From positions 2,108,001-2,172,000 of the forward strand of contig NC_135248.1 in the NCBI RefSeq assembly GCF_947623445.1: a DNA stretch of 64,000 nt, given 5' to 3'. This stretch comes from Clavelina lepadiformis. Lineage: Eukaryota; Chordata; Ascidiacea; Aplousobranchia; Clavelinidae. A model generated the notes under the pieces. That model ran no database searches. It saw only the letters and a program-made list of their open reading frames with translations, and had not been told where the DNA came from. Both the position numbers and the translations under genes were made by a program. The number at the start of each line of letters is the position of its first letter. Within the stretch, counting starts at the first letter, position 1. Positions 29,052-56,032 of this stretch are shown one piece after another.

Positions 29052-30496
29052 AAGTACGAATGCCGGAAACGATTTGCGAACCTAAAAAAGTATATTCGCC
29101 AGGTTTCAAAGCAAGGATGGACTTGTGTCAACGTGTCTTGTTTAAGTCAAATGTCATGGTAAGTTTTTGAACCATATCTATATATTATGTATCTTTTAAG
29201 TGCCGCAGTCGCAGTCCTCGTTAGTATAGTGGTGAGTATCCCCGCCTGTCACGCGGGAGACCGGGGTTCGATTCCCCGACGGGGAGCAATCTTTTCTTTT
29301 GTCTAAAACAAGAAATGTGCATTCGGTACTTCGAAACTTGCCTACCATCGTTAACGGTACCAGGACTTGGCAAAAATTAACCGTCGGTACCGGTATTTCT
29401 TACTGTTTCAGAAAAGTACTTCAATACTTTGTCATTTCTATAACGGTAGCCTATATTTGCCTCTATTGCGACTCGACTAGTGCTCTACAGACTACAGGTG
29501 ACAGCATGTTTCACCTTACTCTTTGCGACTTTATTACGCATTTGTAGATTAGAAAAGAACATAGAACGCTAAAGTTGGCATTTAGATTTACTTAAAATAT
29601 ACTTTTGATAATAATCATACTTTCAAAAAACCTTGACATAGTCACTTGCAAAGTACGAGAACCAAATACCGGCACCGACTAAAGTTTCTTGAAATAAGTA
29701 ATTCGGTTATTCGGAAAAATATATATTCGATACTTTTTTAAAACATACCCATCGTACAGGTGTTACCGGCCTAGGTGGCAGTTTTTAATAACATTAGGCC
29801 TACATCATTTCTTGGAAAAGTGTTTTCTAGTTATTGATTGAAGTTTATGAACTTGTTTTTTGATAACACTTCAACTGTCGTTTGATATTTGGAAACTTGC
29901 TCTGAATAACTTTGTATGAACTAAGTACAGTAGCCGTGTTTTTGTGGTCATGTGATTATTTTTGTGTGATTAGGGGAAAGTATTTTGGCAAAAGCATTAA
30001 CAAAATGTTTTAATTATAGCAAAACCATCTGCTAAGACAATGAACTAACTCAGTTACGATCGAAATAATTTCGTTTGTTCTGACGTTTTGATTTCTAGTA
30101 GTGCTTCACTTTGCTGAAAATTAAAAAAAGGTTTTACGCGATGAAGAACTACAAATCCTTACAGAGTTGTTTATTTGTTTATTAGAGTGCATGCTTCAGC
30201 GATCGGTGTGCGGTGCATTATTATAAAGCGGTTTTTGCTACTCAGCAATTGTGCTTTAACTAAACCTGATTTTGGTGAACTATCTTGTTATCTCAACACT
30301 ACAAAGTAAGATCGATAATGTTTATAAGTTGTCGATGGATAAAAACGAACATTTAAACGATAAAATCCACAGAAAGACACACAACTTGAGGCGGATTAAA
30401 AAATTGTCTTCTATAATATACATACTAGGACGGTACGAGCAAAACAAAGACCTAAAAGGCTTGCGACAAATAAAATCGGACACTTCTACTCCCTAA
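29052..30496 (+). CDS. Candidate two-exon gene with tRNA-Asp in its intron
   Basis: A good acceptor (TTTAATTACAG) precedes 29052. An ATG follows eight bases later at 29060 and opens 33 codons (MPETICEPKKVYSPGFKARM...), ending at a donor ATG|GTAAGTTT (29158). A phase-0 acceptor at 30309-30310 (AAAGTAAG|ATCGAT) could join it to 62 further codons, rich in lysine, ending at 30496 (...[11 protein letters not shown]). The intron would contain the intact tRNA-Asp. The second exon would overlap the last codons of the convergent SDR gene (stop at 30486) by 11 bases. I recognise no family, and the second acceptor is weak, so this is only a candidate. Confidence 0.28.
29215..29286 (+). tRNA. tRNA-Asp (anticodon GTC)
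   Basis: 72 nt forming a full cloverleaf. Acceptor strand TCCTCGT pairs with ACGGGGA plus discriminator G. The anticodon arm CCCGCCTGTCACGCGGG carries GTC, and the T arm contains GGTTCGATTCC. As far as I recall it is identical to the common vertebrate tRNA-Asp. A pol III terminator (TTTTCTTTT) follows within ten bases. It looks functional, unlike the three related relics in the window. Confidence 0.97.
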
Positions 30497-32234
30497 GCAT
30501 TTGCATTTGCTCGGGTGGGATACCTTCTATGCTTCGTCGCCCTTGCGCCGGAGTGTTCAGCGAACTTTCCCCAATGTGTACTGGTGAAATGGTTGGCGTA
30601 CCTCTCTCGATCCACTTCATAGTCATATCATACAGTCGCATTGCCGCCTCGTCGTTGTAGGCATGGCCGGTCAGTCGTTCCTCGGCGCATTTACTTCAAA
30701 ATAAAATTGAAAACTATTAAAATCTTGTCTTGGCTCGTGTAAGTACATTTTACGAGTGAGCAATAACTGACATACAGTAACACCATCTTACTTGAAGTAA
30801 GATCCAGAAACGAGTCTGAGCTCGTGGGCAATTGTGCAGTAAATAGACGTCTGAGCAGCTGCTTTAGGTGGTATGTAGACAGTTCTCTCCATGCAACAGC
30901 AGCAGGATGTAAAAAAACATCTCAAACAACAGGAATATCCATCCTCTTGTTTAACGTGATCAGCAAGGCTCGTTAATGCCATTCCCGGATGCAAGCAATT
31001 ACACGTCACGAGACTTCCTTAAATAGAAAGAACAGTTGCTGCTGTTTCCACTGGAAAACTCTTGTAACTGCTACAAGGCTTGTTATACTGATTTTGTAAA
31101 ACCACCTTGAAGTCTGTTGGCGAGTTCTAGACAGTGGTATATGTTTGCCAGTTTAGTTTGAAAGTACATCTTCAAGGGGGAGTAGTTGTTATCATGCATT
31201 ATATCGTCCCACTTCATTCTACCAAACTTGTGCGCCATTGAAGAAACTATAATTACCCGAGTTGGAGCACATATTGCGCCGGTCCTCTGCAAATGAAAAG
31301 ATGCTAAGATTGAGGTTACCTCAGAAGTCTGAGCTTGAAAGTTACAACCTTTAGCAGATCGAGAAGTAATTCAGTCAGGAGAAAGTGTCCGATGTAGTTG
31401 ACCCCCATTTGCATGTCAAAGCCTTCAACCGTTTTCGATTTGGGGCATCCCATGACAGCTGTTATATGAAATCGGAAAAACATGAAACCTTCACAATAGC
31501 ACATTACGTACATTATTACAGGAAACTGTACGAACTTTCATGCTTCAAAATAAAATACTGCAGCGTCCAAGCCTAAAAAGAGAGCGGTATAGGTTCTGTA
31601 TAAAGATATAGGCCTAATACCGGCATTATTGATGAGCACATCAAGCCGTGGTTCGTTAAATTTTATGTCTCTCGCAAACTCATAGATTGAAGCAAACGAA
31701 GCCAGGTCGAGCCGTCGCACCTCCACAACGGCGTCGGGAACCTCTTGAATTATCTAATATGGTGACAAGCGGAGCCCAAGCTTAATGTAAAGTCTTACTA
31801 CGAAGATAAAATCTTAATTCTGTTATCACCAAAAGTTCACTAACCTTTAACCTGGCTTCCCGCCCTGCGTCAGTTCTACGGCAAGCCATGATCACCCTTG
31901 CTCCCCTACCAGCAAGATCAAGAGCAGTTTCATATCCGATTCCTTGATTTGCTCCAGTGATGATAACAGTTTTACTGTCCATCCTCACGTAACTTTGCAC
32001 CCAACCCCTTGAAGCCGTGGGGGTTCGTTCTGCTACACAAAAAAATGATGTCACGTCAATTAGGAATGGAACCCTGCACCCTACAATTAGGAATGAAACC
32101 CTGCACTAGGAATGGAACCCGGTACCCTGCAGTAAGCAACAGCAGGTTATAACATAGAGTATCACAAAAGCCCGGTAATTAATCGTTTGATAAAGATTTA
32201 AAATATCTCTGCCGCACTCACCATGTACCGACAT
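30486..32234 (-). CDS. RDH-like short-chain dehydrogenase, stand-alone gene 1
   Basis: Seven exons on the minus strand: 32222-32234, 31845-32032, 31621-31753, 31349-31458, 31106-31286, 30792-31017 and 30486-30693. They total 1059 nt, giving 352 aa with all phases consistent. SDR landmarks are the NAD(P) loop [15 protein letters not shown], the VSS serine region and the catalytic YFQTK. The canonical NNAG is NNAA here, made across the exon junction. There is no N-terminal membrane anchor (start [15 protein letters not shown]), unlike vertebrate RDH11-14. A cysteine-rich hydrophobic run, [13 protein letters not shown], replaces the usual C-terminal segment before AAQTSIYC. Substrate is unknown; retinoid or other lipid carbonyls are the family norm. 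It heads a six-module array. Confidence 0.9.
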
Positions 32235-32880: not shown

Positions 32881-33087
32881 AAACAAAGTGTCTAACCCAT
32901 TGTCTTGCCTATCTTTTATTTACCTTATATGGCTATATATAGCCTGTAAATTACAAGCCATTTTTGGTTGGCGGCGCCCATTTTCAGTAGAACAATCCTC
33001 GGTACCCTAAGTTTCTTTCTTTAACCAGCCTTTGTTTATGCAGTAACTGTCGGCACATAAGTAACTATGTCAGCATATGGCGTATAT

Positions 33088-33536
33088 CAGGGCTTCCCAA
33101 ACTTTTTTGCTCGCGACCCCTTTCAAACTTCTGAAGTTTTCCGCGACCCTTCACGTTTAAATTGATTAGCAGTGCGAAATATACATTAGTCATTAGTGAC
33201 ATTTATTGAGATGCAAAGACCGAATTCAAGCAACCAGAACTCAGAGCCTACTTACTACTTTACAGTTTACACACGTCTAGGCTACTGGAAACAAAAAAGC
33301 ACACACATTTATTTAGTGTGATTGGTGCGATTGCTTTCTGCTACAAAGCAAGTCCAGCCGTGGCTCAATATCTGTTAATGCTGGTCTCAAGGCGGTTTCA
33401 ATGTTGATTAGTCTGGAACGATATTTTTTTTTGATTGTGTTTTGTACTTCGTGTAAAATTGGTATACGCTCTGCGACCCCTGAAGTTCGTTACGCGACCC
33501 CTTGCGGGGTCGCGACCCCCAGTTTGGGAAGCCCTG
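33088..33536. mobile_element. hAT-type non-autonomous DNA transposon (449 bp)
   Basis: Terminal inverted repeats CAGGGCTTCCCAAACT ... AGTTTGGGAAGCCCTG are flanked by a perfect 8-bp target duplication, GCGTATAT (33080-33087 and 33537-33544). The termini and 8-bp duplication are diagnostic of the hAT superfamily. Inside, GCGACCCC(T) motifs recur near both ends, and there is no transposase. The paralogous block at about 37227-37245 has the uninterrupted site ATGGCGTATATCATC, so insertion followed the block duplication or the element is absent from that copy. Confidence 0.95.
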
Positions 33537-35073
33537 GCGTATATCATCACAATAATATCGGTTCCAAAAATAAGTAAAGAATAATTTTAAGAATTATATG
33601 TTGGGGGTTGCAGCTCATATGTGGAACAAAAACAAAAGCAAAACCGGTAGCAAATATCTTTCAGTCCGACGTTTCGGTCGAGACTACAACCAATCTCTAT
33701 GCTTTAGAGAACCAACGATACGTTCCGGTTTGTACAGTAGCTGTATAGTCAGACAGAAAATCATTCGACTCTAATAACTGGAGAAAACTAGACAAGGACA
33801 GTGCCAAGTGTTAAAATAATTAGAGAAAGGTTGAAAACCAATCGCTTGGATCTTGGATCGCCTGTGAAGATTTTTTGGCTAGCATCCCGATACTACTAAA
33901 GGACATTTTCTGTATTTGAAATGCATCTGTTGGCTTATCACGTCATAATAAACATCGATGAGCATTCTCATAACAAGCATGGTTAGACGTGTATGTCCAT
34001 CATGAGACAATTTAATGCTCTTGGGCTCTCTCTTACGGTTGTTATGATTTTAACGGATTTATTTGGACAGATCACTTGGATCTCACCCTAGTAGTAAAAG
34101 GGTGGCGAGTTTGACATTGCTTTCTCTGAATCTTCGATCCCTATTTTTATGGCCCACAATCCATTGTTGACGTCGTATTATACTGCTGACTGTTGCGATT
34201 GGAGTTCGATTCCAAGTTTATATTTTGCTTTCAGAAATACATAAAACGAGCATTTTTTTCTCCTTTCAACGTTATTTGGCTTCCAAATTTACTTAGAAAT
34301 TTGATGTGCTAACAATATTGCGAAGCCTAGTAACTATATATAATTAGCATAATCTATAACATAATTATATTTGTACTCATAAACTTGGTTTTATTTTGAC
34401 AAATTTAGGTTTAACAATTTTTTCATATCAAACTATGATTTTAGTGGTTTCTGGAGTACTTTGTCATACAATGAAGGAAAGAAACGTTTTAACGGTATTC
34501 ATGTGAAACTACCAACTCTTACAGACCTGGGTGTCTAGGTTATTATGTTTCAGTTACCGGAGTGTGCTGCGTATATTGTAAAACATAGATACACGACAAC
34601 CGACAATTAAAGTAATTGAAAAGCAGTTTACATGGTTAATGCTTAACAAACCCTTAACATGAAAAAAATCATCGCAAATTTGAAATTCGTCGATGGACTT
34701 TATATGTTAGGATGCTTTTTGGATTCATAACAACGTATAGAGCCTACACCCAAGTCTATTTTAAACCGAAACGACCATTATGTTTTCAAGCACTCAAAGC
34801 AAAGAAGACTGCTACGTTACAGGTGGAAAGTTTAAAAAAGCCCAAACTTCACTTGGCCTCGCAAACTATGGTTACCGAATGGATTCCCCATACTTCACCA
34901 TAAGTGTACCAGAAAACCAACAGCCGCCTGAAATGTGGGAGTAACATTTTATTTTAAAGTTGTTTGCACATAAAACGAACAGGTAAAACGATGGCAATAA
35001 AAAGTTCTAAGGACCAATTATAAAGCCATAAGTCTTCTTACAAATACTCTGATAAAACGTTAAACCAAACAGA

Positions 35074-36464
35074 TTAAGGTGACACTGTAAGCACCAGTGT
35101 TTGTTCTGACAGAGAACTACACCGAAAAACATCATCAATCCATTCATGCGTCATTAGCCACAGTCTCTTTGCTGCTTCCGCGTTGCTCGCAGGGTTGCTC
35201 AGTCGTTCTTCGGCGCATTTGCTGGAAAACGGAAAACTATAATGTGTAAAGTCCAGGCTAAGTAACAAACGTGTCAAATCTTACTTGAAATATCTTCCGG
35301 AAACTTCTTGCAGTTCCGGAGCAATTGCGCAGTAAATAGATGTCTGTGCGCCCTCTTGTGGCGATATGTGGACTGCGCGGTCCAAGCAACAACAGCAGCA
35401 GGTGAAGAATAATTTAAAAGGACAGGAATATTCTTCTCCTCGAACCAGCCCCGGATTTAAGCAATTGCACGTGACCTTAGAACCTTTTATGGAAAATAAA
35501 ATATTTAGACTGTTTTGGAAACTGCGTTTAACCGTAACCGTAGTTCACCTCTAAGTTGTCTGCTGAGTTCTAGGCAGAAATATACGTTTGCCAGCTTGGT
35601 TTGAAAGTACATGGGCAATGGGGAGTAATCCACGTCGTGCATCATATCATCCCACTTCATTTCACCAAGTTTATGGTCACTCGAGGACACAATAATTATG
35701 CGACTTGGAGCACTTCTCTGCAAGCGCAATGGTAGAACATTTTAATTCCGAGTTCAAAGTAAGATTAGTTTCAATGTTAAGACCTGAAGCAAGTTGATAA
35801 GTTGATCAATTAGAAAAACGTGTCCGATATAGTTGACGCCCATTTGCATGTCAAAGCCTTCAACAGTTTTCGATTTAGGGCAGCCCGTGATAGCTGTAAT
35901 ATGACGAATTTCATAAAGTAGTCGCAAAGCTAAAAAATGTAAAACGCAGTTGCAGTATTCTAGTCTTACCGGCATTATTGATGAGCACATCGATACGAGG
36001 CTCGTTGACGGTTATCTGTCTTGCAAATACATGGATTGATTCAAAAGAAGCCAAATTCAGCTTAATCGCCACCACATTGGCGTCGGGACATTCTTCGAGT
36101 ATCTACACGTTAAAACCATTCGTTGATATTACCATCATGATATTTGCGTATGCGCTATACTTCCAAGAAACTAAATGTCCTGATTTCATGCCAATACCGA
36201 CAGCCTACTTTCGCTTTCGCTTTCTCTCCGTCGTCGGTTTTACGGCTGCCCATGATCACTCTTGCTCCTCTGCGTGCAAGATCAAGAGCAGTTTCAAATC
36301 CGATTCCTTGATCTCCACCGGTGATGACGACTGTTTTACCGTCCATCCTCACATCGGATCGCACCCAACCTCCTGAAGCCGATCTCCGCTGCTCTTCTAA
36401 AAGCAAAAACCATTTAAAGTGATGAGTTTTTTAAGTCTTACCTTCTGCCAAACTCACCAGCCAT
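35074..36464 (-). CDS. RDH-like short-chain dehydrogenase, stand-alone gene 2
   Basis: Seven exons on the minus strand: 36458-36464 (ATGGCTG only), 36209-36396, 35970-36102, 35784-35893, 35549-35717, 35285-35483 and 35074-35221. They total 954 nt, giving 317 aa. The NAD(P) loop TGGDQGIG is at 28-35. A serine patch VSSS at 156-159 precedes catalytic Y183 and K187 (YFQTK). NNAG reads NNAA. The protein begins MAEEQRRSASGGW with no membrane anchor. The C-terminal part has the array's CxC-rich run followed by [16 protein letters not shown]. It is a very close paralogue of the gene at 38284-39674, duplicated with its flanks. An AATAAA lies at 34948-34953 on the gene strand. Confidence 0.92.
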
Positions 36465-38283
36465 GTCGTTAGCAACTCGATTTCTGTGGTTCCACATAAT
36501 AACAAAGAAAATGTAACAAAACAAACCTAAACGACTAAGTTAAAACAATAATTTCTACAACGTTGTGGCAATGCTGCAGACGAAACAGTAAAATTTACAT
36601 CACACTCAAACTTTATCTAATAATTATTGCAAAGCCTGCTACCAAGACGTAGCGAAAATTGACTAGCACCTAGAACCTTCCTTTGCTTCAAGCTTGCAGT
36701 GTTATTTCTTTAATGAGCAATGGAATGTGAGGTGTGAGGTGATTACAATTGTGGCGGGGAGGAGAAACGTCTGAAGGTTGTGAGGCAATAAACACTGCGT
36801 GGAGAGACCGGAGGTTGCTGCAAAGTAAAGAATAAGTAACACAAGTGCTAAGAAAAAACCGGACAAATGAAACAATAAATGCCTAAAGTAAAAATGATAA
36901 TTACAGTAGCGTGAAAGAAGATGAATGAATTTTTTAAGCACCGGAAGTGAAAAATCAAGTTCAAATGCAATGAAAACGTCATTTATTAAGTTATTATCAC
37001 GCAACAATATATAACTAAAGTGTGTAAAAACAAAACAACTTGAGGCCAAGGAAATCCATTGTCTGGCCTACCGTATATTTACCTTATATGGCCATATATA
37101 GCCTGCAAATTTATAACCAATTTTGGTTGGCGGCGCCCATTTTCAGCAGAACAATCCTCGGTACCCTAAGTTTCGTTCCTTAGTCAGCTTTTGTTTATGC
37201 AGTAACTGTCGGCACATAAGTAACTATATCGGCATATGGCGTATATCATCACAATAATATCGGTTCTAAAAATAAGAATAGAATAATTTTAAAAGCGAAA
37301 TGTTGGGGGTTGCAGCTCATATGTGGAACGAAAACAAAAGCAAAACCGGTAGCAAATATCTTTCAGTGCGACGTTTCGGTCGAGACTTCAACCACTCTAT
37401 ATGCACTAGAGAACCAACGATACGTTCAGGTTTGTACAGTAGCTGTACAGTCAGACAGAAAATCATTCGACTCTAATAACTGGAGAAAACTAGACAAGGA
37501 CAGTGCCAAGTGTTAAAATAATTAGAGAAAAGTTGAAAACCAATCGCTTGGATCTTGGATCGCCTGTGAAGATTTTTTGACTAGCATCCCGATACTACTA
37601 AAGGACATTTACTGTATTTGAAATGCATCTGTTCGATTCGAGTTCGGTTGTACGTTTATATTTTGCTTTCAGAAATAAATAACACCAACATTTTTTCACA
37701 TTTCGTCGTCAATTGGATTCTAAATTTATTTAGAAATTTGATATGCTTACAATATTACGAAGCCCAATAACTATATTTAATTAACATACTCGTTAAATAA
37801 ATACATAAATACTGTACTTGTAAACTTGGTTTTGTTTTGACGAATTTAGGGCTCAAAATTTTTTCATATCAAACTAATTGCAATTGTTTCTGGAGTACTT
37901 TGTCATACAATGAAGGAAAGAAATGTTTAACGCGGTGTTCATATGAAACTACCAACTCTTACACAACTGAATTTCTAGGTTGTTATGCTTCAGTTAGCGG
38001 TGTGTGCTGCGTTATACTGTAAAACAGATAGATGCACGACAACAGACAATTAAAATAATTGAAAAGCAGTTTACACCGTTAATGCAAACCCGTAACATTT
38101 AAAGAAAATTAAGTGCACCAGAAAACCAACAGCAGACAGAAATCCAGGAGTAACATTTTATTTTAGAGTTGTTTGCACATAAAACGAACAGATAAAAGCA
38201 TGGCCATAAAAAATTTCTACACACCAACTATAAAGCTATAAGTCTCTTTATAAATACTCTGCTAAAACGTTCAGCTAAGTAGT
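36465..38283. other. SDR intergenic region, right duplicated block
   Basis: About 1.8 kb collinear with 32560-35073 minus the hAT element. It contains the upstream block of gene 2 (36715-37020) and the empty hAT site near 37237. An open frame at 37310-37516 lies in repeat sequence with no splice or homology support. Confidence 0.7.
36715..37020 (-). promoter_or_regulatory. Shared upstream block of SDR gene 2
   Basis: Homologue of 32572-32880, about 250 bp upstream of the gene 2 ATG. The TATA-like motif is degraded here (TTTCTTTAATGAG on the + strand), which may mean a different start site or weaker expression than its paralogues. Confidence 0.45.
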
Positions 38284-39674
38284 TTAAGGTGACTCTCTAA
38301 GCACAGGTATTTGCTCTGACGGAGAGAGTGGAGGACTATCTCGCAAGATATCATCAATCCATTCCTCAGTCATTAGCCACAGTTGCTTCGCTGCTTCCGC
38401 GTTGCTCGCACGGTTGCTCAGTCGTTCCTCGGCGCATTTGCTGGAAAAACGGAAAACTATGACGTGTAAAGTCCAGGCAAAGTAACAATCGTGTCAAATC
38501 TTACTTGAAATATTTTCCGGAAACTTCTTGCAGTTCCGGAGCAATTGCGCAGTAAAGAGATGTCTGTGCGCCCTCTTGTGGCGATATGTGGACTGCGCGG
38601 TCCAAGCAACAACAGCAGCAGGTGAAGAAGCATTTAAAAGGACAGGAATATCCTTCTCCACGAACCAACCCCGGATTTAAACAATTGCACGTGACCTCAG
38701 ATCCTTGTATGGAAAATAAAATATTTAGACACTTTGGGAAATTGCGTTTAACCGTAACCGTAGTTCACCTCTAAGTCTTCTGCTGAGTTCTAGGCAGAAA
38801 TATACGTTTGCCAGCTTGGTTTGAAAGTACATGGGCAGTGGGGAATAATTGACATTATGCATCATATCAGCCCACTTCATTTCACCAAGTTTATGGACAC
38901 TCGAGGACACAATAATTATGCGACTTGGAGCACTTGTCTGCAAGCGCAATGGTAGAATATTTTAATTCCGAGTTCGAAGTAAGATTAGTTTCAATGTTAA
39001 GACCTTCAGCAAGTTGATAAGCAGCTCAATTAGGAGAAAGTGTCCGATATGGTTGACGCCCATTTGCATGTCAAAGCCTTCAACAGTTGTTGACTTAGGG
39101 CAACCCGTGATAGCTGTAACATGACAAATTTCAGTAAGTAGTCGCAAAGCAGAAACTGTAAAATGCAAGCAATTCTAGTTTTACCGGCATTATTGATGAG
39201 TACATCAAGACGAGGCTCGTTGTCGTTAATTCTTCTTGCAAATACATGGATTGACACAAAAGAAGCCAAATTCAGCTTAATCGCCACCACATTGGCGTCG
39301 GGACATTCTTTGAGTATCTACACGTTAAAACCACTTGCGGATATTACCCATCATGATATTTGTGAATGCGCTGTACTTCCAAAAATCTAAATATCCTGGT
39401 TTTATGCCAATGTCGACTGCCTACTTTTGCTTTCGCTTTCTCTCCGTCGTCGGTTTTACGGCTGCCCATGATCACTCTTGCTCCTCTGCGTGCAAGATCA
39501 AGAGCAGTTTCAAAACCGATTCCTTGATCTGCTCCGGTGATGACAACAGTCTTGCCGTCCATCCTCACATCGGATCGCACCCAACCTCCTGAAGCCGTTC
39601 TTTGCTGCTCTTCTAAAGCAAAAACGATTCAGGTGGAGTTTTCTAAAGCACACTCTGCCAAACTCACCAGCCAT
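38284..39674 (-). CDS. RDH-like short-chain dehydrogenase, stand-alone gene 3
   Basis: Seven exons on the minus strand: 39668-39674, 39425-39612, 39185-39317, 39004-39113, 38769-38937, 38505-38703 and 38284-38440. They total 963 nt, giving 320 aa with all phases consistent. It starts [13 protein letters not shown], then TGADQGIG, the NNAA variant of NNAG, VSSS and the catalytic YFQTK. The C-terminal exon is intact ([20 protein letters not shown]...), but its last 20 residues differ from gene 2. Exon sizes equal those of gene 2 except the last. AATAAA on the gene strand lies at 38157-38162. Confidence 0.92.
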
Positions 39675-41643
39675 GTCGTTAGAAACTCGTTTTCTGTAGT
39701 TCCACAAAATAACAAAGAAAAAGGTTTTGATCTGCCAAACTAATCTAAACTACTAAATTAAACAATAATCTCTACAACGTTGTGGCAATGCTGCAGACGA
39801 AACAGTAAATTTTACATCACACTCTTCAACTCATCAACTTTTTTCGAACAGTTAATGCTATAACTTGGCACGAGGGCAAATTGTCTAGCACCTAGGACCT
39901 TCCTTTGCTCCAAACTTGCGGGCCCATTTCTTTTATTACCAGCGATGGAATGTTAGGCGTTCTGTGATTATATAATTGCGGCGGAGGAGGAGAAACGCTT
40001 GAAATGCGTGAGCCAATAAACGCTGTGCGTGGGGAGACTGGAGGGTGCTGCAAAGTAAGGAATAAGTAAAACAAGCGCTAAGAAAAAACTGGACGAATGA
40101 AACAATAAGTGCCTAAAGTGAAAATAATAATCACTGAAACGTGAAAGAAGGAAAATAAAGCTTTTAATACCGGGAAGTATAAATTTTAAACCAAACCAAT
40201 AAATTAGTTATAAAGTTTTCTCACACACTAAAGAAAGTAATTTAAATGATTTGATACACGTTTGGAAATATTATCTTTTTTTAAGTTTTATCATTGTTAT
40301 ATTTTACCCCGATTCTTCCAGAACTTTGCTAATTACACTCTTTGCTAAGTTTTTTGTCGAATCGTTTATTGCATTTTAATGGAAATCTTTTCACACACGA
40401 AGCTGCATATTCATACATTTTGTTTCTTTTGTGAATGTAACCACAGAAATGTATAAACATAAATCAATCATGTCTGGTTTTGAGCAAAAAAGTTAGCCCA
40501 CTCTGCTCGGTAACTACACGAAAAACGTCATTTCCTCTTTGTCACCAGTCTAAAATGTTGAGATAATAACAAGGTTGTTAAAAGTGACATTCGCACTTTG
40601 AAGAATACATATCTTGTTTAGGGACTTTAAGTAACATTTCACATAACATAACTTATAAAAAGGATTTGATTTAATCCAATTTTACTAGAAACGCTTATAC
40701 ATTTTTTTCGTATCTAAGAACCTTTTGGTTAAGTAACTTATATGTTACACTGTCATTCTTTTTACATAAAAACAACACTTGGAAAACATAAAATGTGATT
40801 TTTGGTGTTTTCTACGTACTTGTGTGATGTTGTTCTTAAAACCGTTTAAAACACACTGAAATTGAATCAATAAGTCAATTACCTAAGATTTGATCAAGTA
40901 GACTACCACACTTCTACAACACATAGATGGCAATGGCTAGAACCTGTTTCACACGTGGAGACCTGTGTTGCGTAAAAAAGTTTCTTATGTCACGTCATGT
41001 TTCCAGTTGCTTGTGTTTCTACCTGTTTCAAAATTTGTTCGAAGCGCACGTCAGCGCCCAACGACACTTATTAGTTATTACCAATATTGTTTGGTTAAAC
41101 TTAAACTTGTCTCATTGTTGGACATTACCAATAAGACGCATTATTCCTTGTTTTATTTCTTCTCTTTAATTACATTTTTAGGAAGCAGACAGGGAAGCCT
41201 ACAGGTTATAATTTAGGCCTAGAGAAAAAGTTTTCTAATACTATAATGTGCGTCACTGGCAGTCTGTATGCCTAAATCTAAACTTAAAAATGGTCAACTT
41301 ACAGAACACTGGTACAAGCTTCTAAACATGCTATAAGCTAGGCCTGGATTCGTCTGTAGCAGGCTACCGTGTATGTTTTCTTTCCACAATTGTAATCCAG
41401 TAAGGCTTTGATGGAAAACCAATTATTTAAATTGCCAATGTAGTAGATTTTATTTTAAACTTGTCTGTGCATAACGAACATTTAAAAGCGAAGCACACAT
41501 TAAAAACAGCAATGATAAAATATGAGTGATCAAAATTTGTTTCATTAGAAATGTGTTCTCAATCAGTGTTTGTACAATATAGATAGGTAGCCACAGGCTG
41601 TCATGGTGATGATTGTTATAAAACAAGACGCATTTACTAAGGT
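39675..41643. other. Region between SDR gene 3 and the fused SDR gene
   Basis: About 2 kb. It holds the upstream block of gene 3 (39929-40170), then AT-rich sequence with nothing recognised. An AATAAA for the fused gene lies at 41449-41454 on the minus strand. Confidence 0.5.
39929..40170 (-). promoter_or_regulatory. Shared upstream block of SDR gene 3
   Basis: Homologue of 32572-32880, 36715-37020 and 49407-49660. The gene-strand TATA-like AATAAAAGAAATGGG is retained, about 255 bp upstream of the ATG. This copy is more like the 49407 block than the 36715 block. Confidence 0.5.
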
Positions 41644-44600
41644 TCATATTCTGCTAGTTGTGTGCCCAGAACTTCTCCCTCCTCGAGCGGCAGGATTTTC
41701 AGAGCCTCGCCGAATCCACTTCATGGTCTGCTCCTCCAGCCTGTTTGCGGGCTGGTAGTTGGCGTTTCTGTTTCTCAGGTCCTCATCGGCACATTTGCTG
41801 GAAAATCGTGAAACGTTGTAAGTTGTTGATGGGATCGAATGCCCGGATGATAGTACCGGGCGCAATTACGAAACAATTGTCTTACCTGAAATATCTTCCA
41901 GAAACAGCTTCCAGCTCCGGAGCGATTGCGCAGTAAATAGATGTCTGTGCGCCCTCCTGTGGGGATGCGTAGACTTTGCGTTCCAAGCACAAACAGCAGC
42001 TGGTGAAGATGCAATTAACAGAGCAGGAATGTTTTTTTGCTCGCAGCAAACCCGGGTTTAAGCAATTGCACGTCACATTGGAACCTTGCATGGAAAAGGA
42101 AACAGTTTACGAACAAGCTATTCAGAGAATTTGTATCTTACTACTTATCATATCTTACCGCGAAGTCTGTCGGCTAGTGTTAGACAGTGATATACGTTTG
42201 CCAGTTTAGTTTGTAAGTACATGGTGCAGGGCGAGTAGTTGTGAACATGCATCCAATCTTCTTCCCTCATTCTAGCAAGTTTATGAGCACTAGACGTAAC
42301 AATGACTATGCGACTTGAACCTTCGCCTCTTAAACCGGTTCTCTGTAAATTTCAAGGTTGTAGGATTCCGAAAATGCAAAAAATAAGTAAAATGTTAAGA
42401 CCTTTAACAGGTCGAGAAGTAGTTCAGTTAGGAGAAAGGGTCCGATGTGATTAACGGACATTTGCCTGTCATAGCCATCAACGGTTGTAGACTGCGGGCA
42501 TCCTACAATTTCTGAAATAGGAACTTAAAATATATTTTTGAAGCATTAATAAAGTGAAATAAAAAACGGAGCAGTGTTTGTTAAACTTGAATGAAAAACG
42601 TGTTTGACAGATTTACGGGCATTACACTGTGCTGCGTTTGAAAATTTTTTTTCATAGGTCAAAGATGTTTTAACTGTTTCTGAATCGATTTTTTGCGCTG
42701 AACTCAAAAATGCAACCAGTTTTTTTCAATCAGGTCAAGTTTTTTTTCTATCACATATTTAATTATGCTAGCTTTGGTCGTTATTGTGCACAAAGAAACT
42801 AATTTCTGGGGTAGCTTAATTGGTCATGCATGTTGTCAATTTTCGCAAGATGGTATTTTTATTTGAATGTAAGGTTTTTGCAATGACAGCCATTTTAAAT
42901 ACTACAAAAATATAATGACACAGTTGAAATAAAGGCACTTACAACTAACCAAGAAAGCTTCCTAACACATAAATTTGTTCAACGGCGCTCAACCTAAAAG
43001 TAGAAGTTAATATGTTACATTATAGACACGTAAACACTTAACATCACAAATGTGTTTTAAATGTGAAATACTTGCAAACATCAATGTGTGAAATAAAAAC
43101 GAAGTGTTCAAAATAGCTTAACACAGAAAGCGTTGTGCGGCACATGATGATATTACGACATTAAATGCAATAACAATATAAATACAAATGATTTATGCTG
43201 ACAAAAAGTGTTGCTTCAAAGATTTTCTTCTATGTGTGGTGTTGGGAAGATCTCTTTTTAAGCACCAACAGTAATCTGCAAGCATGTTTACATCCCAGCA
43301 TCCTTGGTACCTTTCTTCCATATGGCGAAGGTCTTGGTGGAATCTCTCTCCCTGTTCTTCGCTGTAGTCACCACAGTTGTCAGGAAAGTAATCTAAATGC
43401 GAACTCAGAAAGTGCATTTTCACAGACATCCGGGCTCCAAGGGATTGAAAACTTTCAAGCAGCTCTTTAACCTGTGCTTCATAATCAGGGATTCTATGCT
43501 TTCCAAGGAAGTTTGAAATTACTGCTCGAAATCCTGTCCATGCTCTTTTTTCTACTGCACTCATGTGTGCAGTAAAACCTTCGTCTTTCATCAGCTCACG
43601 GATCTATAGCCCATCAAAGACTCCTGCTCGTAGCTTCGCTTCAGAGATGCGGGGAAATTTCATTTGTAAGAACTTGAAGGTTGGGCCATCTTTATCAAGT
43701 GCTTTGGTATAGTTTTTCATGAGACCAAGTTTAATGTGGAGAGGTGGCAAAAGAATATTTTGTGGATCAACTAAGTAAGCAAATTTGACATTTTTAAAAC
43801 CAGGTGTAAAACTTGTTCTGGGTAGCCAGCTAATTTGTGTGTAGTGGCGATCATCAGCCCTCGAGTCCCACAGACACAAAAAACATGGATGTTTAGTGTA
43901 ACCGGCCTGTAACCCAAGAAGTATTGAAATCATTTTTAAGTCACCACATATTTTCCATTTGTGTTGGCTATACTGAAGAGATTTCAAAAGGTATTTCATG
44001 TCTTCATAGCATTCAGTGAGCTTCACTGAATGTCCAACAGGAACAGAACCAATCTTATTGCCATTGTGTAGTAATACTACCTTCAAACTCTTTACAGATG
44101 AGTCCAAAAACAATCGCCATTCTGCCGAACTGTATACTATGCCCAAAGCTGATATTAATCCTGAAACATCTTGACATCATCTAGGGAATGGTCTTCGTCA
44201 TAATTGAAATATTTTCTAAACTATTTATCTTCATACCGATACCAGAAATATGTGGTGCATGGAGCTAGCAAGTTGTTCTCACGTAGTCGTGATCCTAGGA
44301 GCTGAGCGGATTCTTTGGTGAGATTTAAATCTCGGGTTAGGTCATTCAGCTCAAGCTGTGTAAGAGGCTTCGGTTGACTTGTACTTTGCTCTGCATCCCA
44401 TGTGTCTTGTTCACTTGCTTTGCTCGCTGCAGATGAACAACACTCCATTTCACTTATTTCTCCAGGTGGTTCTGGAACAGGAATACCAGGGCCATGTGGT
44501 ACTGGTTTCATGGCTGAAGGAACATCAGGGTACTTCACATGTTGTTTGTTCTTCCGGTTTATTCCTAAAATGAAAAAGAACACTTTTACTCTTAAATCAA

Positions 44601-47600
44601 GCAATTAATGAAAATGCCTCCATACAGTGCAAGTATCAGCATACCTTGTAAGTTGGTCATGCAAAAATAACAATCAGTGACATGGTCTTTTCCTTCTCTC
44701 CATATCATAGGAATACCGAAAGGAAGGCTCTTTATTTTCTTTAGGCTCCATAATCTCAAGTTTTCAACGCATGCTCTACAACATATGTGCGGAGCAAATG
44801 CCTTGTCCTGATTGCCTAGTTTTACTCCAAAATACGCATAATATGCTTTTTTAACAAACTGCGTAATTTTTGCTTGGCGACTGCGCAGGGTGACCTTGCC
44901 ACATATGTAACAGAACCTGTCTGGATCATTTTTGCACTTTCTCATTGTACTGTAAAAACAAATCATCTAAACTGCACACTAAACTAGCCTGTAAAAACAA
45001 GTTCAGATGTTTAACTTTTCAAGCACCAGGTGTATTCGTTATGTTCTTCTCATTGTGATGTCACTGAAGTTTCATCAAAACTTAATTCAAAAACTAAATC
45101 ATTTTTATGACACCACAAATCTCAATCGCAAACGCTGAAAGCTGAAGTTGTCAAAAATTTCAAACGCAATTTGCCAAAAAACTAGACCTGATTGAAGAAA
45201 ACGGATAACAGTTTTGGATTCAGCATCAAAAAGTACACTAAGAACCGTCAATACTTTATTAACCTAAAAATTAACGCAGCACAGTGTTATTGATGAGCAC
45301 ATCAAGACGGCGTTCGTTGTTGTTTATTTCTCTTGCAAACTCAAAGACCGACGCCAATGAAGCCAGATCCAATTCTTTCACCAATATATCGGCGTCGGGA
45401 TGCTTCTCGAGCATCTACATGTTAAATAATTGGGTTATTAAACGTCCAGACAAAATTTGTATTTATTTTGAAGCCTAAAACCAACCTTTGACCTGGCTTC
45501 CTCTCCGGCGTCAGTTTTACGACAGGTCATGATCACTCTAGCTCCCCTACCGGCAAGATCAAGAGCTGTTTCATATCCGATTCCTTGGTTTGCTCCGGTG
45601 ATGACAACAGTCTTGCGGTCCACCCTCACATCTGATCGCACCCAACCCCCTGAAGCCGATTGGGGCTTTTGTGCTAAACCAAAATACTCCTACGTCACAA
45701 TTTCATGAGTGGAAGAAGCCTTGTGAAATTATCCCTTACTTACCAGCTAATGGTGTGTACTGTAGTCTACGTGCAAAAGTTGTTAGACAATCCGCCCATA
45801 GACTTCTGGGTGGAGAGCTTGGGAGATTTTCCTGACTGTCTGTGGGAGCAGTTGGTGGCGCACTTTCCGCAACTTGCGCGGTTGGGAGCAAACTTTTTCG
45901 GAGCAATTTTTCCGTCCATTCCATCAGTTTCACTGCATCTTGAACGTTGGCGCTTCTGTTGTTAAGCTTTTCCTCGACGCATTTGCTGGAAAATTACGGG
46001 GGAGTATGACGAGTTTCGGGACAAAAAAATTAAATTGGATCGAAGCATGCACGATAATAAACTGTTGTTCTCGCACAAAATTATTACCGGGTAATATGTC
46101 AGCGGGCAACCATAAAAGCAATAAAAAAATTTCTTATACTTCTCTCACCTGAAATATCCTCCAGACACAGTCTCCAGCTCCGGAGCGATTGCGCAGTAAA
46201 TAGACGTCTGTGCGCCCTCTTGCGGAGATACGTAAACTTTGCGGTCCAAGCACAAACAGCAGCTCGCGAAGACGCAATTAACAGAGCAGGGATAATTTTG
46301 TCCTCGCACCCAACCCGGGTTCACGCAATTAATCGTTACATAAGCTGGCACGGGAAATAAATAAGTTAATGCTTTATGAACTGGCTAATTGGGTACTTCA
46401 CCCCAGCCACGTCTTACTTCTATGTCTGTGGGCGAGTTCTAGACAGTGGTAGACGTTTGCCAGTTTAGTTTGTAAGTACATGGTGCAGGGCGAGTAGTTG
46501 TGGACATGCATTCTATCATCTTCTCTCATTCTACCAAGTTTGTGGGTACTAGACGTCACAATAACAATGCGACTCGTAACTCCTTCCCTTGCTCCAGTTC
46601 TCTGCAAATTTGAAGGTTTTAAGATGGGTGTTTTAGAGTAGGAAACAGATCAACTTGAATGTTAAGACCTTTAGCAAGTCGAGAAGCAGGTCAGTTAGGA
46701 GAAAGTGTCCGATGTGATTGACGGACATTTGCCTGTCATAGCCGTCAACGGTTGTAGACTTCGGGCATCCTACGATTTCTGAAATAGGATATTTTTTAAA
46801 ACATGAAATGACTGAGTAAGCCAGAAAGCAAACGTTGTGTGGCGAAGCAGTCCGAAAATCGAACCTAGCTGTAACAACCTAGGTACATCTATACCGGTAT
46901 TATTGATGAGCACATCAAGGCGGCGTTCGCTGGCGTTTATTTCTCTTGCAACCTTGCGGACAGAGGCCAATGAAGCCAGATCCAATTCTTTCACCAATAT
47001 ATCGGCGTCAGAATGTTTGCGTAGTATCTACATGTTGAAAAAGTAGCGTCTTAAACGTATAATTTTTAAAGACAAATTGTTCTTTATGTTTTTAAGCCTA
47101 AAACCAACCTTTGACCTGGCTTCCTCTCCGGCGTCAGTTCTACGACAGGTTATGATCACTCTTGCTCCCCTACCGGCAAGATCAAGAGCTGTTTCATATC
47201 CGATTCCTTGATCTCCACCGGTGATGACAACAGTTTTACCTTCCACCCTCACGTCGGATCGTACCCAACCTCCTGAAGCCGATCTAGGCTGTTCTTCTAC
47301 ACAAAAGACAGTTCAATAAGCTAGTCTTCTTATCTGAAGCGAACATCCAGGAAAGACAGGTCTTAACAGAATGCAGGCTTGAATGGTCTGTGTCTAGCAA
47401 ATTATGTATGGAAGTTGCTTAAGGTAAACGTAACTGGAACTCTTCGCTCACCAGCAGTCATGCAGCCACTTTGACGTATCCGTAACATATTTGCCCAACA
47501 ATCCGTCAACAAATGTTCTGTTGGAGTACTTGGCGGGCTTTGTCGATTATTATCCACAGTCAAAGTGCTTCCCACACTTTGCTTCCCACACTTTGGTTTA

Positions 47601-49104
47601 ATCGCGAAACTAGTGTTTGCCAGACTAGCGTTTGCCAATCCGGCGCTTGCAAAACTTGGCCGATTTCCTGCGGTTAAAGTGTCTGGCGGATTTTCTCGGA
47701 CCCATCGTTCACTCTTTTCCCACAGTCTTATTGCAGGCTGAGTGTGGCTGTTTTGGTTGAGAATTTCTTCTTCCATGCACTTGCTGAATGAAGGTGAAGT
47801 TAGGCTTGCCGTCAAAACCACACGGCTAACCATGAGCAATGAAAAATTTGTCACGTCTTACCTGAAATATTTTCCAGAAACTCGCTCCAGCTCCGGAGCG
47901 ATTGCGCAGTAAATAGACGTCTGTGCGCCCTCTTGCGGAGATACGTAAACTTTCCGGTCCAAGCACAAACAGCAGCTCGCGAAGAAGCAATTAACAGAGC
48001 AGGAATATCCCCTCCCTCGTACCACACCAGGGTTTACGCAATTAGCCGTTACGTAAGAACCTTAAAAGGAAAATTAACTGTTTGCAAAGTGTGTTTTTTC
48101 CACGCAAGGCAACATCTTACTTTGAAGTCTGGCGTCAAGCCTCAGGCAGTGATAAACGTTTGCCAGCTTGGTTTGAAAGTACATGATTAAAGGCAAGTAG
48201 CTGTTATCATGCATCATATCATCCTCCTTCATTGTACCCAGTTTGTAGGTGCTAGACGAAACAATGATTATGCGACTTGATTCGACGCTTGAACCGGTTT
48301 TCTGTGAAATAAAAGGTTGGAAGATTCGTAGGTTGAAACTCGAACGATTACATTTTAACTTAAGACCTTTAGCAAGTCGAGAAGTAGTTCAGTTAGGAGA
48401 AAGTGCCCGATGTGATTGACGGACATTTGCCTGTCATAGCCATCAACGGTTGTAGACTTCGGGCATGCTACGATTTCTGAAACATGACATTTTAAAAACA
48501 TGAAATGAGTACGAAAACCACTAAGTAAACAGACAATTGACCGTAGCAATGTCAAAACATGTCGTAGTCATCATCGCAGTAGTAATAGGCCTACATGTTT
48601 ACCGGCATTATTGATGAGCACGTCAAGGCGATTTTCATTGTCGTTTATTTCTCTTGCAACCTCACGGACAGAGGCCAATGAAGCCAGATCCAATTCTTTC
48701 ACCAAAACATCGGCGTCTTGATGTTTGCGTAGTATCTGCATGTAAACAAGTAGCGCTTTATTAAACGTGTAATCTTCCGAAGAAAAGTCGTTTCTTAGGT
48801 CTAAAACCAACCTTTGACCTGGCTTCCTCTCCGGCGTCAGTTCTACGACAGGTCATGATCACTCTTGCTCCCCTACCGGCAAGATCAAGAGCTGTTTCAT
48901 ACCCGATTCCTTGATTTGCTCCAGTGATGACGACTGTTTTACTTTCCATCCTCACGTCGGATCGCACCCAACCTCCTGAAGCCGACCTAGGTTGTTCTTC
49001 AAAACAATAGAGGTTGATATAATTCACGGGCTTCGTAGGGCAAGCAGAGAAACTTCCTAATCTAACCATTTGAATTTTTATACTCTCATAAACCTACCTG
49101 CCAT
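41644..49104 (-). CDS. Predicted triple-SDR fusion gene, third domain split by a transposon
   Basis: Module A exons: 49098-49104, 48812-48996, 48603-48735, 48367-48476, 48121-48301, 47862-48060 and linker 47452-47783. Module B: 47109-47296, 46895-47027, 46669-46778, 46418-46601, 46149-46344 and linker 45744-45985. Module C: 45486-45673, 45290-45414 plus 42617-42624 (one 133-nt exon split by a transposon), 42402-42511, 42159-42342, 41886-42084 and 41644-41797. Modules B and C have no ATG in their first exon and no tiny exon 1. Instead each upstream linker ends in a phase-1 donor (GACTGCTG|GTGAGC; TTAGCTG|GTAAGTAAG) before its stop, fitting the next acceptor. The sum is 3168 nt, or 1055 aa. Each module keeps TG.xxGIG, VSS/VTSS and Y(F/L)QTK; NNAG is NNAE or NNTE. 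The split exon should inactivate module C in this allele. Separate operon genes are the alternative. Confidence 0.72.
42625..45286 (-). mobile_element. CACTG-terminated (CMC/EnSpm-like) DNA transposon, 2.66 kb
   Basis: The ends are exact inverted repeats CACTGTGCTGCGTT (42625-42638 and 45273-45286). Subterminal regions also match in inverse (TTCAATCAGGTC(A/T)AGTTTTTT near 42726-42750 and 45180-45205). A TTA duplication flanks it (42622-42624 and 45287-45289). Removing the element and one TTA restores the uninterrupted 133-nt SDR exon. CACTG ends with a 3-bp duplication point to the CMC/EnSpm group; the assignment is inferred. It encodes a transposase-like gene at 43193-44966 on the minus strand. 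The clean ends suggest a recent insertion. Confidence 0.88.
43193..44966 (-). pseudogene. Transposase-like gene of the CACTG element
   Basis: Four minus-strand open segments. 44592-44966 has paired cysteines (CYICGK, HICCRAC, CYFCMTN) of a zinc-binding head. A donor CTTACAAG|GTATGC and an acceptor TTTTAG lead in frame to 44221-44604, with [14 protein letters not shown]. 43604-44146 has [29 protein letters not shown] and [10 protein letters not shown]. 43193-43591 has [20 protein letters not shown] and [10 protein letters not shown]. This architecture is common in uncharacterised proteins of cnidarians and arthropods. CGDL and the C..C...D block recall Tnp2-type CACTA transposases, by inference only. 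The frame is interrupted between segments, so this copy is probably inactive. Confidence 0.7.
47600..47660 (-). repeat. 15-bp in-frame repeats in SDR linker exon
   Basis: Three consecutive 15-bp units (+ strand GTTTGCCAGACTAGC, GTTTGCCAATCCGGC, GCTTGCAAAACTTGG) encode the A-N-(T/A)-S/L rich stretch [17 protein letters not shown] second short duplication (GCTTCCCACACTTTG twice) lies at about 47570-47600. The linker between modules A and B seems to have grown by slippage while staying in frame. Confidence 0.7.
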
Positions 49105-49406
49105 GGAGCTAGTTTTGAAATCGAATGACGAAAGAAAAACTCTTTTTGTAGAAAACTAACAAAAACTAGTATGTTAAAACAACAGCTTCTCGTTGTGGTC
49201 AATGCTGCAGACAAGACCTATTAAAATACTCACAACTTCGTCAACGCTTAAAAACAGCTAAGACATAATAAGTCAAAAACATGATAAATACAAAGCGCAC
49301 AACACTATAGTTTAGCAGCTGCGCTATACCACGTCTTACCATACAGCACAATGCAAAGATACTTAAAAGTTTAACTCGTTCTTTGCCTAAAAGAAGCAGC
49401 CCAATT

Positions 49407-49660
49407 CCTTTTATTACGAGCGATGGAATGTTAGGCGTTCGGTGATTATATAATTGCGACGGAGGAGGAGAAACGCTTGAAATGCGTGAGGCAATAAACG
49501 CTGTGCGTGGGGAGACTGGAGGGTGCTGCAAAGTAAGGAATAAGTAAAACAAGCGCTAAGAAAAAACTGGACAAATGAATCAATAAGCTTTGAAAGTGAA
49601 AATAATAATTACTGAAACATGAAAGAAGGAAAATGAACCTTCTAAGCACCGTTAACGGCA
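49407..49660 (-). promoter_or_regulatory. Shared upstream block of the fused SDR gene
   Basis: Homologue of 32572-32880 and 39929-40170, about 300 bp upstream of the module A ATG. It retains gene-strand AATAAAAGGAATTGGG and the pyrimidine tract before TTTGCAG. No such block lies in front of modules B or C, which fits one transcript starting only here. Confidence 0.5.
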
Positions 49661-53711: not shown

Positions 53712-54175
53712 GAACGACTCGGGCGAGTCACGTTAAAAAGACAATGCAGTACGATATGAAATGATCGCTTTGGTGAATGAAAACAACAGGGATGGCAGTT
53801 AACGTAATTACTTTGCAAACGTTCCACAAACCTGAACTATAACACTGGACAACAGCAAAATTATTCCTCAAATGAAAATAAACTGCCTAGACTAACTTTG
53901 GGACGCTGATTCCAAATCTGAAATCAGAATTGGTCTATCACGTCAGGTTTTCAAGATATGAAAATTCACGAAATTCGGATTTTGCATTGATTGGCACTAT
54001 ATTATAAGGTTCTACAGTACAAGGTATTGTGCAATTTTCTTTCCCAGCGAATTGTTGGTCATATTATGTCACAATGCATGTTATGTAAGATTAACATTGA
54101 CATTATTTTGTAAATGCAATGTTCTATCTTTTCACAATTAATGCATTCTTGAATGTTCTTGGCCATGACTATAGA

Positions 54176-54208
54176 GGGGGGGGGGGGGGGTAGGGGTAGG
54201 GGGGGGAA
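54176..54208 (+). repeat. Poly-G tract
   Basis: A run of about 14 G, a short TAGGGGTA break and a further G run. It abuts the left edge of the transposase fragment at about 54209. It may mark a breakpoint or be a site of sequencing uncertainty. Confidence 0.85.
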
Positions 54209-54968
54209 CATATGTGGAGACCTTAAAGTTGTGTCACTTTTACTCGGATTGCAGTTGGGTTACACCAAGCATATGTGCTTTCTCTGTTTGTGGGACAGTC
54301 GAGACGATGCAAACCACTATGACACAACTGAATGGCCAATGAGAACGGACTACATTGTTGGAAGATATAATGTTAAGTGCCAACCCCTAATTGATCCGAG
54401 CAAAGTGTACTTGCCACCACTTCACATTAAACTGGGCCTGATCAAACAATTTGTGAAGGCAATGGATTTCAATGGAGATGGATTCCTGCATATAAAAGAA
54501 AAATTTGGTGCAATACCAAGTGATGCTAAACTGAGAGCTGGAATATTTGTTGGCCCCCAAATACATGATTTGATCCGTGACCCAGTATTTCCATCCAAGC
54601 TTAATTCAATTGAATTAAAAATTAAAAGCCTGGAATGCATTTGTACAGATTGTACAAAATTTTCTTGGGAAGTACAGGGCAGAAAATTACTCGGAACTAG
54701 TGGACAATTTGCTGGAATCATACCGCGAAATGGGCTGCAGAATGTCGGTTAAACTGCAGTTTCTTCATTCACACTTGGAATTTTTCCCGCCAAACCTGGG
54801 TGATGTGAGCGACGAGCATGGGGAAAGATTTCACCAAGACATCTCTGTGATGGAATCGCGGTATAGAGGTCGATTTAACCCAAACATGATGGGGGACTAC
54901 TGCTGGTTTCTTCAGCGTGAAACTGACACTGAACATACTCGAAAGAGCAAGTGCATAAAGCACTTTTG
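54209..54968 (+). pseudogene. Fragment of a second transposase-like gene
   Basis: Two overlapping plus-strand open segments (to 54752, and 54700-54968) match the middle and end of the transposase at 43193-44146. They contain [77 protein letters not shown]. The head with its zinc-binding cysteines is missing, and a poly-G tract sits at the left edge. No CACTGTGCTGCG terminus was found nearby, though TTTGGATTCAGCA at about 55189 also occurs near the end of the other element. It is a different, older family member. Confidence 0.75.
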
Positions 54969-56032
54969 AGGGAATATAATGTTATTTTTGTCTGATTTAA
55001 TTATCCTGGGTTGTGTTAAATTGTGCAGTATGATAATGCTGTTATTTTCAATAGAAATTACTGGGTTGATTACATGTAATGTTTTGTTCCGCTCAGCCAA
55101 AATTAGCCAAAATCACAGTTATGGGTTGTCGTGAGCATATATCATATCTCAAAAACGTGACGTGTTAGAAAAAATCTAAGACCAGATTTGGATTCAGCAT
55201 TGCAAAATTAGTCTAGGTAAACTTGAAATGAGCGAGGAATAAAAAATAAGTTGTAAATTGTTGTCCAGTGGATAATTGTACCAAACGCCAGACAATTATA
55301 AGTGACCGTTGGTAGAGCAGACAAAAGCCGCCCATTTAGGCTATCACATTTTACAAATAAGCAGCCTCAACGAGAGACGTCAGAATACTTAAAAGATTCT
55401 TGAAGGTAACATATGACTATAGCCGTAGATTTAGAAACAGAACCATTTTCAACACCCTCTATGTACTATAGGTTAGGAACAAAAAAAGAGGCATCAATGT
55501 GTAAAAAATTGCGGAGACAGACACGTTTTGCTGTGACTTTACCAGTTCAACTTGCTTGAAATGTGTTTAGTGGACATGCTAGTTCAGTAGTTGATGCCAG
55601 GAATTATAACCTTAATTTTTTTGTACACTTTTTAGGTTCTTTCGGCTTTGTCACGTTTTGTCGTTCAATAGTGCATGCTAATAACAACTGGCTTTTTCGC
55701 TTTTTCGTCCCCACTGCGCATTTGACAAAGGAAAAATGATTGATTGATTAAAATGCCGGCGTTCACATTCAACGAATGTTGTTGAAATACTGTTTTCAAA
55801 CTTGTTGTAAGTTTAGCAAATGTTGTTCACAGATCTGCCAAGTATTTTATTTTGGATCTTAGACATATTTTGCCTCACCTTTTCATTTTGCATCATTAGT
55901 ATGTTATTGAAAGGGATTTTTTTTAAGTATCGCGTTTTTTGTTTAAAATTAGAAGTGCTTTTAAACTGTATGATTTTTTACTATATTACTTGATACAGAG
56001 TGTTAACATAGGATTACTACCACATTGCAAAA
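54969..56032. other. Intergenic region before the Kelch gene
   Basis: About 1.06 kb. The first 250 bp may be the remaining end of the transposon fragment. The rest is AT-rich and should contain the Kelch-gene promoter. An acceptor-like AACATAG lies about 24 bases before the Kelch ATG. Confidence 0.4.

Follow-up and report, generated by a model that had tools for sequence, protein, structure and literature searches.

Three tandem retinol dehydrogenase-like duplicates probably merged into one gene in the sea squirt Clavelina lepadiformis, with a transposon inside the third module of one haplotype

We analyzed a 64,000-nucleotide stretch of Clavelina lepadiformis DNA (NCBI RefSeq assembly GCF_947623445.1, contig NC_135248.1, positions 2,108,001 to 2,172,000), referred to here as the window, which appears to belong to chromosome 9 of the kaClaLepa1.1 assembly. 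Its minus strand carries three consecutive modules, A, B and C, each resembling retinol dehydrogenase (RDH) 14, a short-chain dehydrogenase/reductase (SDR), together with three stand-alone paralogues, G1, G2 and G3. We put at about 0.77 the probability that A, B and C are tandem RDH14-like SDR duplicates merged into one transcription unit, with a window allele cut by a transposon in C. Re-deriving the boundaries gave 19 exons over the three modules: seven in A (1147 nt), six in B (1053 nt) and six in C. The exon chain is listed below, with slashes marking exon-intron boundaries; P0001 is an annotated protein of the same species.

49098..49104, minus strand: start exon of module A, ATGGCAG
48996-48812, 48735-48603, 48476-48367, 48301-48121, 48060-47862 and 47783-47452, minus strand: exons 2-7 of module A, with GT-AG splice sites, an open frame and a match to P0001
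47297..47451, minus strand: A-to-B junction intron, 155 nt, phase 1, CTG/GTGAGC ... TTGTGTAG/AAGAAC, also in P0001
47296-47109, 47027-46895, 46778-46669, 46601-46418, 46344-46149 and 45985-45744, minus strand: exons of module B
45674..45743, minus strand: B-to-C junction intron, 70 nt, phase 1, CTG/GTAAGT ... GGTTTAG/CACAAA, also in P0001
45287..45673, minus strand: module C exon 1 (45673-45486) and the left part of exon 2 (45414-45287), which ends with a target-site copy, TAA
42617..42624, minus strand: remainder of C exon 2 (TAATGCCC) on the far side of the insertion, with the original donor GTAAAT behind it; across the unoccupied site P0001 has NNAQ
42511-42402, 42342-42159, 42084-41886 and 41797-41644, minus strand: exons 3-6 of module C, ending in the stop TGA
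41449..41454, minus strand: AATAAA, 190 nt past the C stop

Every exon of A, B and C is bounded by GT-AG splice sites, the sole exception being the boundary between C exon 2 and the transposon, and a single open frame runs across A and B and into C as far as that element. Exon 7 of A is extended by a linker of ~82 aa (linker 1), and the last exon of B ends in one of ~52 aa (linker 2). The junction donors (47452 and 45744), their acceptors (47296 and 45673), the intron lengths of 155 and 70 nt and the shared phase 1 were all recovered as the first-pass annotation had proposed. Scored with a small, local matrix built from 33 ordinary donors of the same locus, the junction donors reached 6.4 bits (A to B) and 8.3 bits (B to C), where the ordinary donors span 3.3-12.1 bits. 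The last exon of A holds three GT sites of at least 4 bits and that of B two, the junction donor scoring best in each, whereas the last exons of G1, G2, G3 and C hold none by the same matrix, in agreement with the earlier statement that the stand-alone genes have no counterpart of these donors. The reading frame stays open for 247 nt over linker 1 and for 157 nt over linker 2. Open frames of the former length were found in 2.1% of 9,108 window stretches and 1.6% of shuffled linkers, and of the latter in 7.4% of 9,121 stretches and 13.1% of shuffled linkers.

A protein search with A+B returned P0001, a 1055-aa 'unnamed protein product' of C. lepadiformis that spans both junctions (CMTA^EEQPRS and YTPLA^AQKPQ). 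Because it uses exactly these junctions, the three-domain gene is already annotated, and P0001 is a protein of the kind, about 1050 aa with three SDR domains, that had been named as a check on the linked chain. It differs from the window translation at 12 of 1051 compared residues (4 residues at the transposon site were omitted) and at none of the 82 + 52 linker residues. P0001 lies on a contig of 5,270,119 bp that also carries P0106, a protein close to G3. According to PMC10884593, kaClaLepa1.1 comprises nine chromosomes of 15.7-28.8 Mb, chromosome 9 being 15.73 Mb, with 98.62% of 210.1 Mb placed; the same source lists a poly(A) RNA-seq run of the species, ERR10908613. Since 5,270,119 bp fits no chromosome or possible unplaced scaffold, P0001 comes from another C. 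lepadiformis assembly. Three protein searches (covering all 104 matches, the best 120 of 3,020 and the best 120 of 253) found no separate annotated Clavelina protein for A, B or C, that is, none besides P0001 with an identity to the query above 65%, although clustering at 90% identity may conceal fragments in the two-member cluster of P0001.

Neither module B nor module C has a start exon. Read backwards from the first exon of each, the frame runs within a few codons into a stop (TGA and TAG in the two modules), with no in-frame ATG before it. The earliest methionines are residue 125 in B and residue 49 in C, both past the cofactor loop, which bears out the first-pass observation that these modules lack the tiny ATG exon and any ATG before the NAD loop. 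G1-G3 likewise have no ATG directly before exon 2, but each possesses its own separate start exon. A 265-nt block upstream of A belongs to a repeat family (D7) with four copies between 30000 and 56000, at 32541, 36673, 39903 and 49381, one each for A, G1, G2 and G3. No copy was found at B or C in that interval, so that A is, as claimed earlier, the only module with the shared block. The downstream modules are thus without a start codon and promoter of their own, with the caveat that B could use an ATG at 47461, within A exon 7. The block and the stand-alone genes lie as follows.

49381..49645, minus strand: upstream block of A, shared with the three stand-alone genes (repeat family D7), a putative promoter/5' region
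38284..39674, minus strand: stand-alone paralogue G1, whose 320-aa product is identical in sequence to P0105 'retinol dehydrogenase 14-like isoform X1'
35074..36464, minus strand: stand-alone paralogue G2
30486..32234, minus strand: stand-alone paralogue G3, a near match of the annotated P0106

Taken together, the splice phase, the absence of start exons and upstream blocks at B and C, and the identical junctions of an annotated protein support the fusion. A single predicted chain of three SDR domains is well supported by these sequence features, and a three-module transcript presumably exists.

The window haplotype itself carries a transposon with terminal inverted repeats inside C exon 2.

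42625..45286, minus strand: terminal-inverted-repeat DNA transposon of 2,662 bp (CACTGTGCTGCGTT...AACGCAGCACAGTG), with target duplication TAA, inside C exon 2
45271..45273, minus strand: in-frame stop in the element; the predicted product is 843 aa and ends ...LINNTVLR

The element has termini CACTG...CAGTG: it starts at 45286 with CACTGTGCTGCGTT, ends in the reverse complement of that sequence and has a TAA on either side. CACTA/EnSpm-type transposons are defined by CACTG/A...C/TAGTG termini and a 3-bp target duplication, and both features were found in the window copy and in nine of ten copies fetched from elsewhere in the genome. The first 87 bases match at least 32 other genome places at 96-100%. 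Among the fetched copies, the ends are identical in 10/10 and a TAA/TTA duplication is present in 9/10; two of these nine, L014 and L015, share flanks and may be one duplicated insertion. Full-length identity to the window element is 97.8-99.8% in nine copies, and the tenth, L020, matches at 96.6-96.7% in two pieces and has no 3-bp duplication. L020 (G000:C4:470700-474290) is a 2,422-bp copy with intact ends. With identities to other copies reaching 99.8%, this coding-exon insertion appears to be young. No Pfam family scored above cut-off for the three open reading frames of the element. Elsewhere in the window, at 54153-54969 on the plus strand, open frames with protein stretches resembling those of the element by eye mark a diverged relative of the transposon family, with no DNA match to the window element.

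The insertion point lies 8 nt ahead of the original donor of C exon 2 (now at 42617/42616). The first-pass annotation had read this interval as a long intron of module C; it is a 2,662-bp transposon within a coding exon. Without it, C exon 2 measures 133 nt and A+B+C would sum to 3168 nt, the total proposed earlier, and P0001 reads LINNAQIVG, exactly as the element-free site predicts. Only an allele without the element, like that of P0001, would give this sum. In the window sequence, no GT stands at the homologous donor position of C exon 2, and the earlier total would imply a non-GT boundary there. We considered in-frame splicing-out of the element and rejected it: the only GT before the element's stop, at 45282, scores -6.9 bits, gives 3167 nt and shifts the frame. 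The proposal that the three modules form one gene is supported in part: the linked chain has good support, and this haplotype cannot encode it intact because the transposon interrupts the third domain. As read from the sequence, the young CACTG-terminated insertion would presumably leave the broken allele with one of two fates: a predicted chain of 843 aa whose third domain is cut short, or transcript decay.

We estimated synonymous divergence (dS) and the ratio of nonsynonymous to synonymous divergence (dN/dS) with the element, the split codon and the linkers omitted. dS was 0.33 for A-B, 0.41 for B-C and 0.51 for A-C, and 0.68-0.88 to G1-G3; dN/dS among A, B and C was 0.29-0.42. In the origin we propose, the last exons of A and B would have lost their stop and gained a linker of 50-80 residues ending in a phase-1 donor, which would splice to the acceptor once used by exon 2 of the following copy, and the downstream copies would have lost their promoter and start exon. 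The intact allele, annotated elsewhere as 1055 aa, encodes three complete SDR domains, each with cofactor and catalytic motifs. The junction donor may represent a start exon taken over from the copy that follows; one short feature is a candidate.

47452..47461, minus strand: ATGACTGCTG, the last bases of A exon 7, with aligned donors, a possible relic of B's own start exon

Both ATGACTGCTG/GTGAGC and CCATTAGCTG/GTAAGT resemble the G1/G2 start exon ATGGCTG/GTGAGT, and the A and B linkers have a short P-S-x-P...DC pattern in common. Start-exon capture remains a suggestion: when the junction flanks were aligned locally to the 5' regions of A, G1, G2 and G3, the scores were matched by 6-86% of shuffles for the donor windows and 17-99% for the exon flanks, and by 3-99% for the junction introns against first introns.

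Several points weigh against the fusion or against this account of its origin. The start-exon relic is not significant by local alignment, the score of ATGACTGCTG being reached by 6-8% of shuffles against G1/G2. The likeness of the two linkers is weak (shuffles reach the protein score in 1.9% and the DNA score in 11% of cases), and linker 1 resembles the G1 tail at least as well (0.4% of shuffles). Fused models of duplicated gene families are described as common (PMC12220653), and Ciona operons hold directly abutting genes that prediction pipelines often fuse wrongly (PMC2760879). Finally, given a promoter within A exon 7, B alone could start at ATG 47461. The Ciona precedent makes a serious rival of an operon in which A, B and C are co-transcribed and then split into separate mRNAs through polyadenylation together with trans-splicing of a spliced leader at 47296 and 45673, and the tight spacing of the modules on one strand fits it. 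A leader at these sites, however, would leave B without a start before residue 125 and C before residue 49, with no in-frame ATG upstream, so that neither module has the start codon of its own that a cistron would use; this counts against the operon, as do the strong phase-matched donors just ahead of the A and B stops, which the stand-alone genes lack. Poly(A) signals favour neither side. No AATAAA or ATTAAA occurs in the 106 nt from the A stop to B or the 63 nt from the B stop to C, but the signals of four control genes sit 121-303 nt past the stop, beyond such gaps. With 600 nt allowed for all genes the contrast vanished: AATAAA occurs 461 nt past the A stop, in B's second exon, and 269 (in C's first intron), 408 and 476 nt past the B stop. 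The signals at 461 and 269 nt would suit an operon, yet they sit within the next module. We accordingly dropped poly(A) signals as evidence for the fusion, lowering our confidence in it from 0.80 to 0.77, and consider the operon improbable.

It is also quite unlikely, in our estimate, that B together with a fused C forms a gene of its own starting from ATG 47461 in the last exon of A, with A ending near 47404. The resemblance of ATGACTGCTG/GTGAGC to the start exon ATGGCTG/GTGAGT would fit, as would that of MTA^EEQPRS to MA^EEQQRT of G1, but the last exon of A is open and in frame through this ATG, no copy of the upstream block lies ahead of 47461, and P0001 joins all three modules. We regard as very unlikely a reading in which P0001 and the window chain are chimeric models of decaying tandem copies, with B and C as pseudogene modules. 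At least two cofactor motifs are carried by 17 of the 104 matches, P0001 included, and most of the 16 others look chimeric; C is, moreover, broken in the window haplotype. Against decay, B has no stops or frameshifts, nor has C apart from the element, dN/dS among the modules is 0.29-0.42, and TGxxxGIG, the catalytic N and S, and YxxxK are intact in 3/3 modules of P0001. The internal modules of the 16 other proteins have a methionine within 70 residues upstream in 21/23 cases and a hydrophobic stretch in 10/23. In P0001 the second module has a methionine in the linker and the third has none, so that its third module lacks the methionine usual in such models.

The domain content agrees with a chain of SDR units. 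The Pfam family adh_short matched two stretches in A+B. We utilized AlphaFold2 to predict the structure of P0001 from a 55-row alignment; the model has three confident SDR domains, with a predicted local distance difference test (pLDDT) score of at least 90 for 672 of 1055 residues. Linkers 308-390 and 688-741 are disordered, and the relative placement of the domains is uncertain (predicted template-modelling score, 0.48), so that the covalent oligomer suggested in the first-pass annotation is hypothetical. A phase-1 intron divides the codon at the glycine position of the NNAG motif, and no array member has the conserved glycine there: G1-G3 have A, modules A and B have E, and C of P0001 has Q, the P0001 modules reading NNAE, NNTE and NNAQ. 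Vertebrate RDH11-14 have an N-terminal hydrophobic membrane segment; by eye, none was seen in module A or in the similar G1-G3. Array members have a cysteine-rich loop at P0001 residues 226-239 and equivalent positions, where the Clavelina proteins P0109, P0112 and P0114 are hydrophobic and P0107 is cysteine-rich. This loop is possibly an acylated membrane contact. The predicted enzyme presumably acts on retinoid-like or other carbonyl compounds.

Two further observations concern the wider gene family. Around G2, G3 and their flanks (32890-39830, minus strand), blocks of 63-300 nt repeat ~3.2-4.2 kb further on at 86-97% identity, and these families (D10, D12-D19) mark a recent tandem duplication of gene plus flank. 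On chromosome 1, at ~8,160,300-8,167,200 (L027-L028), two related RDH genes stand in tandem; the second matches P0107 (310 aa), which has a short tail, WIRQKS, and no linker.

Compared with RDH11-14-like classical SDRs such as P0105, the modules share TGxxxGIG, N, S and YxxxK, and the stand-alone genes share the exon layout; the differences are three modules per chain, no N-terminal hydrophobic segment, and NNAE, NNTE or NNAQ in place of NNAG. Apparent tandem RDH proteins of other animals (among P0002-P0025) likewise have at least two RDH-like cofactor motifs in one predicted protein. They differ in mostly having an internal methionine and, in 10/23 modules, a hydrophobic stretch, as merged genes do, whereas the third module of P0001 has neither. 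The best-ranked single-domain fold match was 3rd5 (template-modelling score, TM, 0.85 of the target). For the whole model, bifunctional malonyl-CoA reductase of Chloroflexus and Roseiflexus (PDB 8hjw, 8hi4) ranked first. This bacterial enzyme holds several SDR domains in one ~1,200-residue chain; it overlays poorly (TM 0.20, root-mean-square deviation 28 Å) at 14-15% identity, whereas the sea squirt domains are recent, near-identical duplicates. Candida tropicalis peroxisomal MFE-2 (PDB 2et6) ranked second and has tandem SDR domains in one chain, with a similarly poor whole-chain overlay (TM 0.20, 22 Å); it belongs to a different SDR family with a different function and is fused to a hydratase. 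Given TM 0.20 and deviations of 22-28 Å, both match the domain content and not the arrangement, and since both are known, several SDR domains per chain are not new in general. Human readthrough fusions of segmental duplicates, which join adjacent genes, are reported as enriched in duplicated DNA (PMC6764479), which is a likeness to this locus. Here, by comparison, the fusion seems obligatory, not alternative, because B and C have kept neither start exon nor upstream block. Literature searches brought up no title on this gene or on tunicate RDH fusions.

The fused gene was thus already present, unnamed, in databases; what is new is the transposon that disrupts the window haplotype, an allele elsewhere that lacks it, and the argument from missing start codons. 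A more ambitious picture is that start-exon capture produced a working, covalently linked SDR assembly, an intramolecular pseudo-dimer whose third domain pairs between chains, in populations segregating three-domain and transposon-truncated alleles that differ in assembly or activity; we regard this as speculative and rather unlikely. With modules B and C no longer equipped for expression on their own, the locus looks like an animal RDH-like multi-domain chain that goes beyond a merged gene model. With a three-domain allele and an allele cut in the third domain by a recent transposon, it would offer a natural experiment. For annotation, the absence of an internal start codon provides a simple test that may help tell real fusions from artefacts.

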